From positions 93,734 through 157,733 of the forward strand of contig NZ_PQGG01000028.1 of assembly GCF_002915595.1 (NCBI RefSeq): a DNA stretch of 64,000 bases. The letters run 5' to 3'. Origin of the DNA: Zhongshania marina. Its GTDB lineage: Bacteria; Pseudomonadota; Gammaproteobacteria; Pseudomonadales; Spongiibacteraceae. Under the pieces are notes generated by a model, which did no database searches, was not told the DNA's origin, and saw only the letters and a list, made by a program, of their open reading frames with translations. Made by a program: the position numbers and the translations under genes. Shown here piece by piece: positions 5,028 to 38,596 of the stretch (position 1 is its first letter; every line of letters starts with the position of its first letter).

Positions 5028-5885
5028 ATGTCCTCCGACAAACTGTCTACGTCAGCATTAGCGAAGCAGGGTGAAATCCCTGTGCAGCAGCTTTTTTCTG
5101 TTCTCAAAGATTACGGCTGGATTCGCAAAGTAGATGAGGGTTGGGCACTCACTGCAAAAGGAGAATTTGAGGGCGGTAGTTACCAAAGCAGCAAACGCTA
5201 TGGCCGTTATATTGTGTGGCCACAGAATTTGCTAGAGCATCAGCTATTTAGGGCGATGGAAAGCAATAAGTTGCTGTCTGCGGTGGCGCTAGGGCGTTCT
5301 GAAGGCTTTAGTGGGCGAGAGTTGAACCGCCTATTCGTAGAGCTGGGCTGGCTAAAACCTAGCCCCCGAGGCTGGGAGCTCACCGCGACGGGGAGCGCAA
5401 TTGGCGGTCAGGTCTTCGAAAATCAGCAAAGCAGCCTAAGTTATGTGCTGTGGCCTGAGGATATTCGCGAGCGAGAGGCGTTTACTCGTCTAGTGCGGGA
5501 ATGCAAAATTGAGTCGCAGGTCACCGATGATTTATTCGCGGGCAGGGCGTCCGGCTGGACTGCTATTGATGGCGTGACTTGCAAGTCTCAGGAGCATTGT
5601 TGTATAGCCCAGTGGCTGTATTTAGCGGGGGTTCGTTACAGTATTTACCGCGCTTTGCCAGTTGATGAACATCTCGTTTGCGATTTTTATTTGCCCGACA
5701 GTGGAGTGTGCCTTGAATTTTGGGCTAGCGGTGAGCTTGCAGATGCAATATCGGCGCGAATGCGTCGCGCCGATGTTTGTAAGCAATTAAATATATCTGT
5801 ATTAGATATTCATCCGGAAGATATGCCGAATTTAGACGATTATCTAAGCCGCCATTTGCAGCAGCTTGGTGTTGCGTTTTATTAG
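5028..5885 (+). CDS. Tandem winged-helix-like repeats fused to a nuclease-like domain
   Basis: Uncharacterised 285-aa soluble protein. Residues about 5-65 and 88-145 are two copies of one unit: a short helix-turn-helix-like part ([13 protein letters not shown] / [11 protein letters not shown]), then GW.LT..G....G, then YIVWP or YVLWP. Such units resemble the winged-helix/KilA-C-like modules of phage antirepressors. Residues about 185-285 contain [11 protein letters not shown], then [15 protein letters not shown] and a later K, a layout like PD-(D/E)XK nucleases of the Vsr/DUF559 type, with W where K is common after the glutamate. The domain calls are inference. It follows the dUTPase by 10 bases and overlaps the convergent phhB end by four bases. 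Confidence 0.7.
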
Positions 5886-14988: not shown

Positions 14989-15644
14989 TGCTTATAATTT
15001 TTGATTGGGATGGTACGATTTTAGATTCTAGCGATAAGATTGTGTTTTGCATGCAGCAGGGGGCAAGGGATTTTGGTGTTGCAGAGCGAAGTGCTGACGA
15101 GATACGAAATATAATTGGTTTGGAACTCAGCTTGGCCATAGCCTATTTGTATCCTGAGCTAGATGCGAAAGGGGTGGAGGGAATGCGCGGGCATTATGTG
15201 CGCTGCTTTATTGACGCTGATCGCAGGCCTTGCCAGTTATTCCCCGGCGTGACTGAAACGCTATATGCCCTAAAAGACGCTGGGCACGATTTGTGTGTGG
15301 CGACAGGCAAAAGTCGCCGAGGATTGGATAGGGTTTTTGCCAGCTTGGATATCTGTTCGCTGTTCAGTGCTAGTCGCTGCGCAGATGAAACTGCGTCTAA
15401 GCCCGATCCCTTAATGCTTCGCGAATTGTGCGCTGAACGTTCGGTGAACCCAAGTGATGCGGTTATGGTGGGTGACACTGAATATGACCTGGAGATGGCC
15501 AGCCGTATTGCTATGCCACGTATCGGTGTTTCTTACGGTGCCCACAGCGTAGAGCGCTTATTGCGTTGGGAGCCGCTGTCGGTGCTGGATGAGTTTTCCG
15601 AGTTATTGTCAGAAATTGAGCGACATAAGCGCTCTTTTAAATAA
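14988..15644 (+). CDS. HAD-IA family phosphatase, phosphoglycolate-phosphatase-like
   Basis: A 218-aa haloacid-dehalogenase hydrolase. Motif I is FDWDGTILDSS at residues 4-14, motif II is around VATGKSRRG (about 105), and the C-terminal motif III/IV is K-PDP then GDTEYDLEMA near 160. A helical cap follows motif I, so it is subclass IA, as in Gph-type and YfdR-like phosphatases that commonly follow rluC. The natural substrate cannot be told from sequence. It is translationally coupled to rluC and overlaps the convergent yceF end by eight bases. Confidence 0.9.
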   Translation: MLIIFDWDGTILDSSDKIVFCMQQGARDFGVAERSADEIRNIIGLELSLAIAYLYPELDAKGVEGMRGHYVRCFIDADRRPCQLFPGVTETLYALKDAGHDLCVATGKSRRGLDRVFASLDICSLFSASRCADETASKPDPLMLRELCAERSVNPSDAVMVGDTEYDLEMASRIAMPRIGVSYGAHSVERLLRWEPLSVLDEFSELLSEIERHKRSFK

Positions 15645-16236
15645 TAGATAATCCTTCGTTTCTAAGAAACTCGCAGACTGTAATAAGGGGGAGGCCGATT
15701 AAGGCGTTGGGGTCGTCGCTCCGAATGTGCTTAAAAAGACTGATGCCTAAGCCCTCCATTTTAAAGCTGCCTGCGCAATCGAAAGCAGGCTCCTTCTTTA
15801 TATACCTTTCAATTTCGCTGCTGCTTAGATTTCTGAAGTGAACAAATACCTCCGCAATGCGGTGTTGCAGTTGTTTGGTGGCGGAGTTTAATACGCAGAC
15901 TCCGGTGTGAAAGACAATTTCGCGGCCTGAACAATAAGTTAATTGCTGTTTTGCGGTATCGGCATTCCCAGGTTTGCCTAAAATCACGCCGCCGGCATCG
16001 CAAACTTGATCGCCCGCGATAATAATAGCGTTGCTGTGACTTTTTGCGATCTTGTGTGCTTTTTCTATGCTTAATCGACTTGCTAGCTCCCCAGCGCTTT
16101 CACCTGAGTGGGGCGTCTCATCTATATCGGGGGAAATGCAAAGTGGGTCTAAGCCTATTTGCTGTAATAGCTTTTGCCGATATTTGGAGCCCGAGGCTAA
16201 AATTAAATAAGGGGGAACTTGGGTGCCGATTTGCAT
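15637..16236 (-). CDS. yceF: Maf-like 7-methyl-GTP pyrophosphatase (house-cleaning)
   Basis: A nucleotide pyrophosphatase of the Maf fold; the E. coli YceF subgroup prefers 7-methyl-GTP. Seen are ASGSKYRQKLLQQIG near the N terminus, the DIDETP segment, GDQVCDAGGVILGKPG and the C-terminal SDDPNALIGLPL. The frame stays open up to 16347, but that requires a TTG start and a non-homologous 37-residue extension; ATG 16236 gives 199 aa, the normal length, although no good ribosome binding site precedes it. It is divergent from yceD, as in E. coli. Confidence 0.92.
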   Translation of the reverse strand: MQIGTQVPPYLILASGSKYRQKLLQQIGLDPLCISPDIDETPHSGESAGELASRLSIEKAHKIAKSHSNAIIIAGDQVCDAGGVILGKPGNADTAKQQLTYCSGREIVFHTGVCVLNSATKQLQHRIAEVFVHFRNLSSSEIERYIKKEPAFDCAGSFKMEGLGISLFKHIRSDDPNALIGLPLITVCEFLRNEGLSII

Positions 16237-16340
16237 TGGAGGGGGTGTCCTGTTTGTTGGGCGTGGGCCGAATTCTGCTTGCAAACACAAGGTGTAGTGC
16301 TTTATAGCCCTAAGCCCCCAATAATACGGGTGTTTTTGCT

Positions 16341-16369
16341 TTGACAATAGACTGCGAAGTCCCTATGAT
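16341..16369 (+). promoter_or_regulatory. Sigma70 promoter giving a near-leaderless yceD mRNA
   Basis: A perfect -35 TTGACA (16341-16346), a 17-base spacer and -10 TATGAT (16364-16369). The expected start of transcription is about 16376, only two or three bases before the yceD ATG at 16379, and no ribosome binding site precedes that ATG. It would drive the whole yceD-rpmF-plsX-fab transcript. Confidence 0.75.
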
Positions 16370-32336: not shown

Positions 32337-32421
32337 GCGGATGTGGTGAAATTGGTATACACGCCAGATTTAGGTTCTGGTGCCGCAAGGCGTGAGAGTT
32401 CGAGTCTCTCCATCCGCACCA
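32337..32421 (+). tRNA. tRNA-Leu (TAG)
   Basis: A complete 85-base tRNA with a long variable arm. The acceptor stem GCGGATG pairs with CATCCGC (32411-32417), with discriminator A and an encoded CCA. The anticodon stem CCAGA/TCTGG encloses TTTAGGT with anticodon TAG, which reads CUA-type leucine codons. It is not an amber suppressor, whose anticodon would be CTA. It lies 80 bases upstream of tig. Confidence 0.97.
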
Positions 32422-34707: not shown

Positions 34708-35988
34708 ATGAGTAGTAAAGACGGCACAGATGATAACGGCAAACTGCTGTACTGTTCCTTCTGTGGTAAAAGCCAGCACGAAGTCCGCAAATTAATTGCC
34801 GGACCGTCTGTCTTTATCTGTGATGAGTGTGTCGATCTTTGTAATGACATCATTCGCGAAGAAGTTCAGGAAGCTGCCAGCGAAGCGGGGCGCGATAAGC
34901 TGCCAACGCCGCAGGAAATTAATAACACTCTAGATCAGTATGTAATAGGGCAAAAACGCGCTAAGCGGGTTTTGGCAGTTGCGGTATACAACCATTACAA
35001 GCGTCTGCGGTACGGCGACAAGCACAAAGACGAAGTTGAGTTGGGCAAAAGTAATATTTTGTTGGTTGGGCCAACGGGTAGCGGTAAAACACTGCTAGCT
35101 GAAACGCTTGCGCGCCTGCTTGATGTTCCATTTACCATTGCAGATGCTACAACGCTGACTGAAGCGGGTTATGTCGGTGAGGATGTTGAAAATATCATCC
35201 AAAAGCTGCTGCAAAAATGCGATTACGATGTGGAAAAAGCCCAAATGGGCATTGTTTACATCGATGAGATCGACAAGATTTCACGCAAATCAGACAACCC
35301 CTCAATTACCCGTGACGTATCGGGTGAGGGCGTTCAGCAGGCACTTCTAAAGCTTATAGAAGGCACTGTAGCCTCGGTTCCTCCTCAGGGTGGGCGTAAA
35401 CATCCGCAGCAGGAGTTTTAGCAGGTAGATACCTCAAATATTCTGTTTATCTGTGGCGGTGCATTTGCCGGCTTGGATCGCGTTATTCGCGACCGTTCAG
35501 AAAAAGGCGGAATCGGTTTTGGCGCTGAAGTGAAAAGTAAAAACGAGGCGCGTAACGTGGGCGAGATACTTGCTGATGTTGAGCCAGATGATTTGGTGCG
35601 CTACGGTCTGATTCCCGAGTTTGTTGGTCGTTTGCCGGTTATTGCCACCTTGGAAGAGCTGGATATTGATGCGCTAGTAAGCATTTTGACCGAGCCTAAA
35701 AACGCCTTAACCAAGCAATATGCCAAACTTTTCGATATGGAAGGTGTTGAAGTAGACTTCCGCGAAGACGGCTTGCGCTCAGTGGCTGAGAAAGCCATGA
35801 CGCGCAAAACAGGTGCTCGTGGTCTGCGTTCGATACTTGAGTCAGTACTACTGGATACGATGTATGATCTGCCATCTATGGATAATGTCAGCAAAGTCGT
35901 TATCGATGATTCGGTAATCAAAGGCGACTCGACGCCAATACTTGTGTATCACAATAGTGAGCAGCGCAAAGCGGCTCCTAAAGAGTAG
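34708..35988 (+). pseudogene. clpX: clpX, ATP-dependent unfoldase, interrupted by an in-frame amber codon
   Basis: Would encode the 426-aa Clp unfoldase that feeds ClpP. The N-terminal zinc domain (Cys 16, 19, 38, 41), Walker A GPTGSGKT (121-128), Walker B IVYIDEID (182-189) and the [10 protein letters not shown] loop are intact. Codon 238 (35419-35421) is TAG where the family has leucine (EF-L-QVDTS). The same frame then continues with [19 protein letters not shown] through the sensor and C-terminal domains to TAG at 35986-35988, with no frameshift. The first part alone (237 aa) lacks sensor 1 and 2 and the arginine finger and should be inactive. A TTG-to-TAG single change explains it. Sequencing error is the simplest alternative. 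Confidence 0.85.
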
Positions 35989-36001
35989 TTCCCGCTAGTC
36001 T

Positions 36002-36035
36002 AAACGCCGCAAAAGTCCTTTTTTGCGGCGTTTTT
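36002..36035 (+). terminator. Terminator after clpX
   Basis: AACGCCGCAAAA and TTTTTTGCGGCGTT form a long stem over a GTCC loop, followed by TTT. It separates clpX from lon. Confidence 0.92.
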
Positions 36036-36064
36036 CTTTTTTGTCAGTTTCTTTACAGTCAAGT

Positions 36065-36169: not shown

Positions 36170-38596
36170 ATGGCTGATACAAACGAGATACTGGAATTGC
36201 CACTGCTTCCTTTGCGCGATGTGGTCGTTTATCCCCATATGGTCATCCCACTATTTGTGGGGCGGGATAAATCAATTAGAGCGCTTGAGCTGGCTATGGC
36301 TAGTAATAAGGAAATCGTACTAGCTGCCCAGCGCAATCCGGATTTGGACGAGCCGGGCACCGACGATCTATACGATATTGGGACCGTGGCCAATATTCTT
36401 CAGTTGCTTAAACTTCCAGATGGCACGGTTAAAGTGCTGGTAGAGGGTAGCTACCGTGCGCAGCTTAATGCAGTTACCGCAGAAGAAGATTACTTCAGTG
36501 CTGAAATTACTGCTTTAGAAGGCGAGCGGATTGCCGCAGAAGAGTCTGAGGTGATGCTGCGCTCTGCTATTTCTCAGTTTGAAAAATACATCAATTTAAG
36601 TAAAAAAATTCCCGCTGAAGTGCTCACTTCTTTGTCCGGTATCGATGATCCTGGTCGTTTGGCAGACACCATCGCTGCGCATATGACAATGGAGTTAGAG
36701 CAGAAGCAAACTGTGCTTGAAATGGTAAACGAGCGCGAGCGCCTTGAACATTTGATGGGCCTGATGGAGTCGGAGATCGACCTCTTTCAGGTTGAAAAGC
36801 GCATTCGTGGTCGTGTTAAAAAGCAAATGGAGAAAAGCCAGCGCGAATATTATTTAAATGAACAAATGAAAGCGATTCAACGTGAGCTTGGCGAGTCCGA
36901 AGAGGGCGTCAATGAGCTTGAAGAGCTGGAAAATCGCGTTCAAAAAGCTGGCATGAGCAAAGAGGCGCTAGAAAAAGCCAAGGCCGAGTTAGCGAAACTG
37001 AAGATGATGTCGCCGATGTCAGCAGAAGCCTCGGTCGTGCGCGGCTATATCGATTGGCTAGTCAACATTCCCTGGCAGAAGCGCTCGCGGGTCAAGCATG
37101 ATTTAAAGCGTGCACAAGAGATTTTAGATGAAGATCACTACGGCTTAGAGGAAGTAAAAGACCGAATTCTTGAGTATCTCGCGGTGCAAAAGCGGGTGAA
37201 AAAAGTAAAAGGTCCTGTACTTTGTCTAGTTGGACCGCCAGGTGTAGGTAAAACCTCCTTGGGTGAGTCTATCGCCCGCGCAACCAACCGTAAGTTTGTG
37301 CGTATGGCCTTGGGCGGTGTTCGGGATGAAGCGGAAATTCGCGGTCATCGCAGAACCTACATTGGCTCTATGCCGGGTAAGGTCATTCAAAAAATGTCTA
37401 AAACTGCGGTACGTAACCCATTATTTTTGTTAGATGAAATCGACAAAATGGGTATGGATCATCGCGGTGATCCGGCCTCAGCTTTGCTAGAAGTGTTAGA
37501 CCCCGAGCAAAATCATGCCTTTAATGATCATTACCTCGAAGTCGATTACGACCTGTCAGATATTATGTTTATCTGTACGTCTAACTCTTTGAATATCCCA
37601 CCGGCCTTAATGGATCGTATGGAAGTTATTCGTATACCTGGCTATACGGAAGACGAAAAAATCAATATCGCTCGTCGATACCTCATACCTAAACAGTTGA
37701 AAAACAATGGCTTGAAGGAAACTGAGGCTGAGATCGATGAGGAAGCCTTGCAAGATATCGTTCGCTATTACACCCGAGAAGCGGGTGTGCGTGGTTTGGA
37801 GCGTCAAGTTGCCAAGGTATGTCGCAAAGTTGTTAAAAGCGTCGCATTAAACGGCGATAGCGGCATAATTTCGGTCACTAGCGCGAATTTAGAAGACTAT
37901 CTCGGTGTGCGCCGCTATACCTTTGGCAAGGCTGAGGAAGAAAATAAAGTTGGGCAAGTTACCGGCTTGGCTTGGACGCAGGTGGGTGGTGAGCTGCTGA
38001 CTATCGAAGCGGTTTCCGTCGTTGGTAAAGGTCGTCATATCAAAACTGGCTCTCTTGGCGATGTGATGCAGGAGTCGATTCAGGCAGCTACGACAGTGGT
38101 GAGAAGTCGTTCTAAGCGTTTAGGCATCCCTGCACGCTACCACGACCGCCACGATATCCATATCCATATGCCAGAAGGGGCAACACCAAAGGACGGGCCA
38201 TCTGCCGGTATTGGCATGTGTACCGCTTTGGTTTCTGTCATAACTGGTATACCCGTGCGCTCTGATGTGGCTATGACCGGAGAAATCACGCTTCGGGGGC
38301 AGGTGTTGGCAATTGGCGGTTTAAAAGAAAAACTGCTTGCGGCTCACCGTGGCGGTATAAAAACCGTTATAATCCCGATGGAAAACGAAAGGGATCTGAA
38401 AGAAATTCCGGAAAACATAAAAGCGGATTTAGAAATTCGTCCGGTCAAGTGGATTGACGAGGTTCTAGATATAGCGCTCGAAAGTCTTCCTGAAGAAATT
38501 TCTGAAGAAGCTTACCTTGCGGGTATTGACGACAGCCATAAAAACGTGGATGCGAATGGCGATATTCTTGGTGAGTCCCGTGCAAACGCACACTAG
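36170..38596 (+). CDS. lon: ATP-dependent protease La
   Basis: Hexameric AAA+ protease that removes damaged and short-lived proteins. The 808-aa product has the LonN substrate domain (about 10-205), a coiled middle region, Walker A GPPGVGKTS near 356-364, Walker B FLLDEIDKMG near 420 and the C-terminal serine-lysine dyad in KDGPSAGIGM (about 680) and LKEKLLAAHRGG (about 722). It is intact and heat-shock controlled by its promoter, which may matter because the neighbouring clpX is broken. Confidence 0.98.
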   Translation: MADTNEILELPLLPLRDVVVYPHMVIPLFVGRDKSIRALELAMASNKEIVLAAQRNPDLDEPGTDDLYDIGTVANILQLLKLPDGTVKVLVEGSYRAQLNAVTAEEDYFSAEITALEGERIAAEESEVMLRSAISQFEKYINLSKKIPAEVLTSLSGIDDPGRLADTIAAHMTMELEQKQTVLEMVNERERLEHLMGLMESEIDLFQVEKRIRGRVKKQMEKSQREYYLNEQMKAIQRELGESEEGVNELEELENRVQKAGMSKEALEKAKAELAKLKMMSPMSAEASVVRGYIDWLVNIPWQKRSRVKHDLKRAQEILDEDHYGLEEVKDRILEYLAVQKRVKKVKGPVLCLVGPPGVGKTSLGESIARATNRKFVRMALGGVRDEAEIRGHRRTYIGSMPGKVIQKMSKTAVRNPLFLLDEIDKMGMDHRGDPASALLEVLDPEQNHAFNDHYLEVDYDLSDIMFICTSNSLNIPPALMDRMEVIRIPGYTEDEKINIARRYLIPKQLKNNGLKETEAEIDEEALQDIVRYYTREAGVRGLERQVAKVCRKVVKSVALNGDSGIISVTSANLEDYLGVRRYTFGKAEEENKVGQVTGLAWTQVGGELLTIEAVSVVGKGRHIKTGSLGDVMQESIQAATTVVRSRSKRLGIPARYHDRHDIHIHMPEGATPKDGPSAGIGMCTALVSVITGIPVRSDVAMTGEITLRGQVLAIGGLKEKLLAAHRGGIKTVIIPMENERDLKEIPENIKADLEIRPVKWIDEVLDIALESLPEEISEEAYLAGIDDSHKNVDANGDILGESRANAH

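Follow-up and report, generated by a model that had tools for sequence, protein, structure and literature searches.

An amber codon within the only detected clpX gene of Zhongshania marina, probably a recent nonsense allele

The clpX frame and its neighbourhood

The window analysed in the present study is a stretch of 64,000 nucleotides from Zhongshania marina, which carries clpX flanked by clpP and lon on the same strand (Table 1). Translation of the clpX frame revealed a sole internal stop in the context PQQEF-stop-QVDTS, with no frameshift on either side of it, and the residual sequence was that of ClpX. This agrees with the preliminary description of this DNA, which had read the frame as a full ClpX save for the TAG at codon 238. 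The stop was a substitution and not an indel, and it was found in the middle of a contig of 217,693 bases (C21), immediately 3' of a run of four T. The open reading frames flanking it were 34708-35421 and 35473-35988.

Table 1. Features of the clpX locus of Z. marina, in window positions
Feature	Position	Strand	Basis or remark
clpP, intact upstream neighbour, 210 aa	33950..34582	+	ORF; unflagged in the sister comparison
clpX frame	34708..35988	+	426 codons and a final TAG, with one interruption (translation)
Predicted 237-residue ClpX fragment	34708..35421	+	Translation, ORF and PDB match of the N half
In-frame TAG, codon 238	35419..35421	+	Shortly after GGRKH
clpX remainder	35422..35988	+	188 codons and a stop; translation not expected
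Terminator-like hairpin with T run, clpX-lon gap	36002..36033	+	Fold of 35989-36060, -19.7 kcal/mol
lon, intact; name from the preliminary description	36170..38596	+	ORF; TAG end here and in the sister G003

When the N and C halves of the frame were searched separately against the PDB, the same 15 distinct sequences were recovered at E 1e-40, and all of them were named ClpX or ClpX-like. In chain 9ndj_F the N half ended at residue 236 and the C half started at 238, and in chain 8e91_A the corresponding residues were 235 and 237. Because the two halves lie one residue apart in the best chains, one residue was replaced and nothing was lost, and the earlier reading of the locus as free of frameshifts is confirmed. 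Moreover, in a search that reads through stops, the gene scored above the TIGR00382 cut-off (E 1.2e-204). Orthologue-level ClpX sequence was thus present over the whole length (TIGR00382, both halves against ClpX chains, and 426 codons as in the nearest sister), while a single uninterrupted frame for the full protein was not, owing to the TAG at codon 238.

The 237-residue product ends a few residues past the RKH motif of the GGRKH stretch, which we take to be the RKH loop. The match range of 8e91_A places these residues at 228-230 of the chain, presumably in agreement with the E. coli ClpX numbering of this loop. The zinc-binding N domain, Walker A and Walker B are presumably included in the fragment. 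The IGF motif was visible in the translation downstream of the stop; in ClpX, the IGF loop docks ClpP.

The upstream neighbour is presumably clpP, as judged from its sequence and context. One terminator-like hairpin was found in the gap between clpX and lon, as against 0.2 expected in shuffles, so that polarity on lon is unlikely. The preliminary description had proposed a search for a second clpX, and only a single match was detected: no second copy was found in the 4.13 Mb genome, the next best match covering 104 residues of a 452-aa frame at 44% identity. Elsewhere in the genome, four equal-scoring matches (C15:431-793, C20:2388-2750, C42:431-793 and C42:75065-75427) belonged to a 375-aa frame that weakly resembles AAA+ ATPases. 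All four were located within about 2.8 kb of a contig end, and this repeated frame is probably a mobile-element gene that breaks the assembly.

Orthologues in relatives and constraint downstream of the stop

The clpX gene was present in all 18 genomes of the genus (that of Z. marina and 17 others), with an open frame of 237 aa in Z. marina and of 424-431 aa in the others. Read from the same ATG, the gene was uninterrupted over 424-428 codons in 17 of 17 congeners, and codon 238 was a leucine codon in each of them, which answers the comparison with sister clpX genes that had been suggested at the outset. Among more distant named loci, taken as the best 80 of 592 relatives and all at 82% identity or less, residue 238 was Leu in 78 and Ile in 2; these loci came from gammaproteobacterial or proteobacterial records, for example Alcanivorax, Haliea and Microbulbifer. 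Residue 238 was therefore Leu or Ile in all 97 relatives examined (17 congeners and the best 80 of 592), and a stop at this codon was shared by none of the 17 congeners and none of those 80 named relatives.

In an even sample of the order, a clpX match at E 1e-150 was obtained in 368 of 390 genomes, and in 344 of the 351 genomes of good quality, that of Z. marina included. No internal stops were seen among the matches listed, the Z. marina match not being one of them. Because 368 of the 390 genomes have such a match, loss of clpX is expected to be rare, which counts against a null allele.

The nearest sister by protein identity is G003, whose DNA can be aligned to most of the window with an identity of about 84-87%. 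In the comparison of the two clpX genes, 61.0 synonymous and 2.0 non-synonymous differences were counted upstream of the stop, and 59.0 and 1.0 downstream of it. The sole downstream residue difference was Ile/Val at column 320, a column occupied among the other 16 congeners by Val (7), Ile (5) and Ala (4). Furthermore, all 146 downstream columns that are invariant among the 17 congeners were kept in this clpX. The downstream half is thus conserved like the upstream half (59/1 against 61/2), as was to be expected from the earlier proposal that it had been under recent selection, and an old pseudogene is ruled out by the 59.0 synonymous against 1.0 non-synonymous differences.

Synonymous divergence in the downstream part was 0.666, and approximately 143 amino-acid changes would be expected had it been neutral for one whole branch. 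If branch lengths are taken as equal, the Poisson 95% bound on the neutral time is at most 2.1% or 3.3% of the branch for 0 or 1 observed changes, respectively. From these substitution counts, the stop would have arisen in about the last 2-3% of the branch of this lineage, provided that the downstream part has been neutral since. Since constraint downstream shows no relaxation, the stop is either very recent or an artefact, or the protein is made in spite of it; the synthesis of some full-length ClpX would predict the conservation downstream equally well. The locus has two marks of a recent nonsense pseudogene, namely intact orthologues in close relatives (17/17) and no downstream relaxation (59 against 1).

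Soundness of the sequence, decoding of TAG and competing explanations

A single-base error of the consensus, in a strain whose clpX is intact, is the competing explanation that deserves most weight, and we consider it rather unlikely. It predicts the same data as a null allele: the rest of the gene is well kept, the stop is absent from the 17 congeners and directly follows the four-T run, and one wrong base is plausible in a 4.13 Mb draft of 46 contigs. However, errors of homopolymer-prone platforms would be expected to be indels. Moreover, the neighbourhood is without signs of poor sequence, as judged from a comparison of the ORFs of G003 with 123,960 bases made up of the window and the stretch that follows it.

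In that comparison, any ORF that overlapped a longer one by more than 30% was discarded before the count, as was any match below 60% identity, and an ORF was flagged when a stop lay inside its match or its coverage was under 90%; a frame break within the final 10% of an ORF escapes such flagging. Six of the 94 non-overlapping ORFs matched (32,427 residues) were flagged, and clpX was the only one with a stop deep inside an otherwise full-length match. Of the other five, a 235-aa ORF had a stop at residue 9, probably a matter of start choice, and a 90-aa ORF had one within a match of 26 residues. The match of a 72-aa ORF fell short of its full length, that of a 97-aa ORF consisted of two segments lying in different frames, and a rearrangement had split a 426-aa gene. 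For the window alone, 5 of the 58 sister ORFs compared were flagged. When the ORFs of this genome were in turn compared with G003, 8 of 100 were flagged, neither clpX piece being among them; one was the ORF at 15637-16347 described below, and in four more the start was poorly covered or had stops close to it. Without the overlap filter (at least 90 aa and at least 55% identity), 22 of 78 sister ORFs and 15 of 78 window ORFs were flagged, many of which were judged from their coordinates to be shadow ORFs. The 94-ORF comparison lends no support to a low-quality stretch around clpX and, at the level of sequence, argues against a generally poor assembly; a single wrong base is compatible with it.

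Two observations outside clpX arose from the same comparisons. A 236-aa ORF at 15637-16347 on the minus strand has a match in G003 (74.8% identity) with a stop at residue 45, so that either it is no gene or the gene is broken in the sister. Outside the window, at about 198849-213155 of contig C21, the split 426-aa gene of G003 was found in two pieces about 14.3 kb apart. Between them were a further nearly full-length match on the other strand and paired long ORFs (1038 and 1002 aa; 423 and 416 aa), and the region looks like a duplication, insertion or inversion between paralogous operons.

A second explanation, which we regard as improbable, is readthrough of the stop, whether by means of a suppressor tRNA, natural near-cognate decoding or programmed recoding, so that a little full-length ClpX is produced with another residue at position 238. 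The unrelaxed downstream half is consistent with this, as is the low-level TAG readthrough seen with E. coli reporters. In the available extract of that report, the mean signal was 0.01%-0.80% of wild type depending on temperature and medium, was highest at 18-25 C, and involved insertion of Tyr, Gln or Lys (PMC11126739). On the other side, all 97 relatives have Leu or Ile at this residue, and Tyr, Gln or Lys may fail there; low readthrough together with a foreign residue at a Leu/Ile position makes useful ClpX unlikely. No examined relative has the stop (0/17 congeners and 0/80 of the best 80 of 592 named relatives), which speaks against programmed recoding and leaves no conserved readthrough site.

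The decoding apparatus of the genome also argues against readthrough. Release factor 1 (prfA) was intact, scoring 552.9 bits and containing no stops, and TAG terminates conserved ORFs: lon ends in it here and in G003, with 37 further codons to the next stop, and a 285-aa ORF at 5028-5885 has TAG at the position of a TAA in G003, the next stop being 149 codons further on. TAG ended 8 of the 64 non-overlapping window ORFs matched in G003, a count that includes the two clpX pieces and some short ORFs that may not be genes. The search for a tRNA with a CTA anticodon, another check named in the preliminary description, found none among the 36 of 37 tRNA matches typed by ARAGORN. The 37th match was weak (29.9 bits), and ARAGORN sees no tRNA there. 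The tRNA list is incomplete, because 150 of 169 candidates were scored and tRNA-Ile (GAT) and tRNA-Ala (TGC), which commonly lie within rRNA operons, were absent from the typed set. With the same search, G003 had 37 matches and three other congeners had 38, 36 and 41.

A tRNA-Leu with the anticodon TAG was located at 32337-32421 on the plus strand, just upstream of a 442-aa ORF preceding clpP. It could easily be mistaken for an amber suppressor and was rejected as such, since a tRNA with the anticodon TAG decodes CUA leucine codons and not the UAG stop. Global recoding of TAG, which had been thought unlikely from the start, is ruled out by the intact release factor 1, the conserved ORFs that end in TAG (lon and ORF 5028-5885 among them) and the lack of a CTA anticodon among the 36 typed tRNAs. 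The signs of a reassigned or suppressed codon, that is, a tRNA reading UAG in this incomplete list, loss of release factor 1 and disuse of TAG as a terminator, were therefore not observed.

It may further be imagined that the stop is bypassed often enough, by cold-enhanced near-cognate decoding or by an unassembled suppressor tRNA, for ClpX to be made at a low, temperature-dependent level, the amber codon acting as a crude dial on ClpXP activity; this is highly improbable. The least probable explanation is a split ClpX in which the downstream part, made from its own start, complements the fragment: a 171-aa ORF with a TTG start is available at 35473-35988, but this TTG is the Leu codon of the conserved GGAFAGLD, a start there would omit 17 residues, the gene is one uninterrupted frame in 17 of 17 congeners, and re-initiation is thus unsupported.

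Origin and predicted consequences of the stop

The reading favoured here, with a probability of roughly 0.7, is that the TAG is a recent amber nonsense allele in the only detected clpX of the sequenced strain or culture. The preliminary description had offered three options, and the checks that could be run support the recent null allele among them: each of the 17 congeners has an intact gene, the search detected no second clpX, no CTA anticodon occurs among the 36 typed tRNAs, release factor 1 is intact and the downstream part is conserved. We infer that the base is truly in the DNA, and the stop is probably a mutation at the level of the strain or culture.

According to this nonsense-allele reading, translation would stop after residue 237 through normal termination by release factor 1. 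The fragment would comprise the N domain plus the front part of the large AAA+ domain; sensors 1 and 2, the arginine finger, the small AAA+ domain and the IGF loop used to dock ClpP would all be absent. As these rear parts of the ATPase would be missing, no working ClpX hexamer and no ClpXP protease are expected, and we infer the fragment to be inactive. In that case the load would fall on Lon and other AAA+ proteases.

Recent nonsense pseudogenes in draft genomes are a known kind of event. The present allele resembles them in having one stop, an intact frame on both sides, no relaxed constraint as yet and intact genes in 17 congeners, and differs in that the gene is a highly conserved core ATPase (a strong match in 344 of 351 good-quality genomes of the order). 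It was not named in the literature searched, which comprised titles and the beginnings of abstracts with incomplete coverage. Mutations of clpX have been selected in cultures of other bacteria. In the accessible portion of a study of Staphylococcus aureus under oxacillin, clpX was mutated in 4 of 26 selected mutants and a large deletion was among the selection events (PMC7733948); the likeness is that clpX is hit by independent mutations in cultured strains, whereas that case concerns a different phylum and a known selection and the present one a nonsense codon with no known selection. Similarly, as far as the available text goes, clpX was a target of laboratory evolution in heat-evolved Legionella, a gammaproteobacterium, where the changes were missense (G202A and E203D) and not a truncation as here (PMC10537758). 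Given such selected mutations, the Z. marina allele represents a known kind of event, albeit in an unusual location, and no new biology or mechanism is needed to account for it.

In conclusion, the genome that represents this species may be that of a mutant or may contain a sequence error within a core gene. Should the base prove real, Z. marina provides a natural or culture-derived clpX null in a genus whose 17 other species searched have all retained the gene, and it could reveal the gains and losses of such a bacterium in living without ClpXP.
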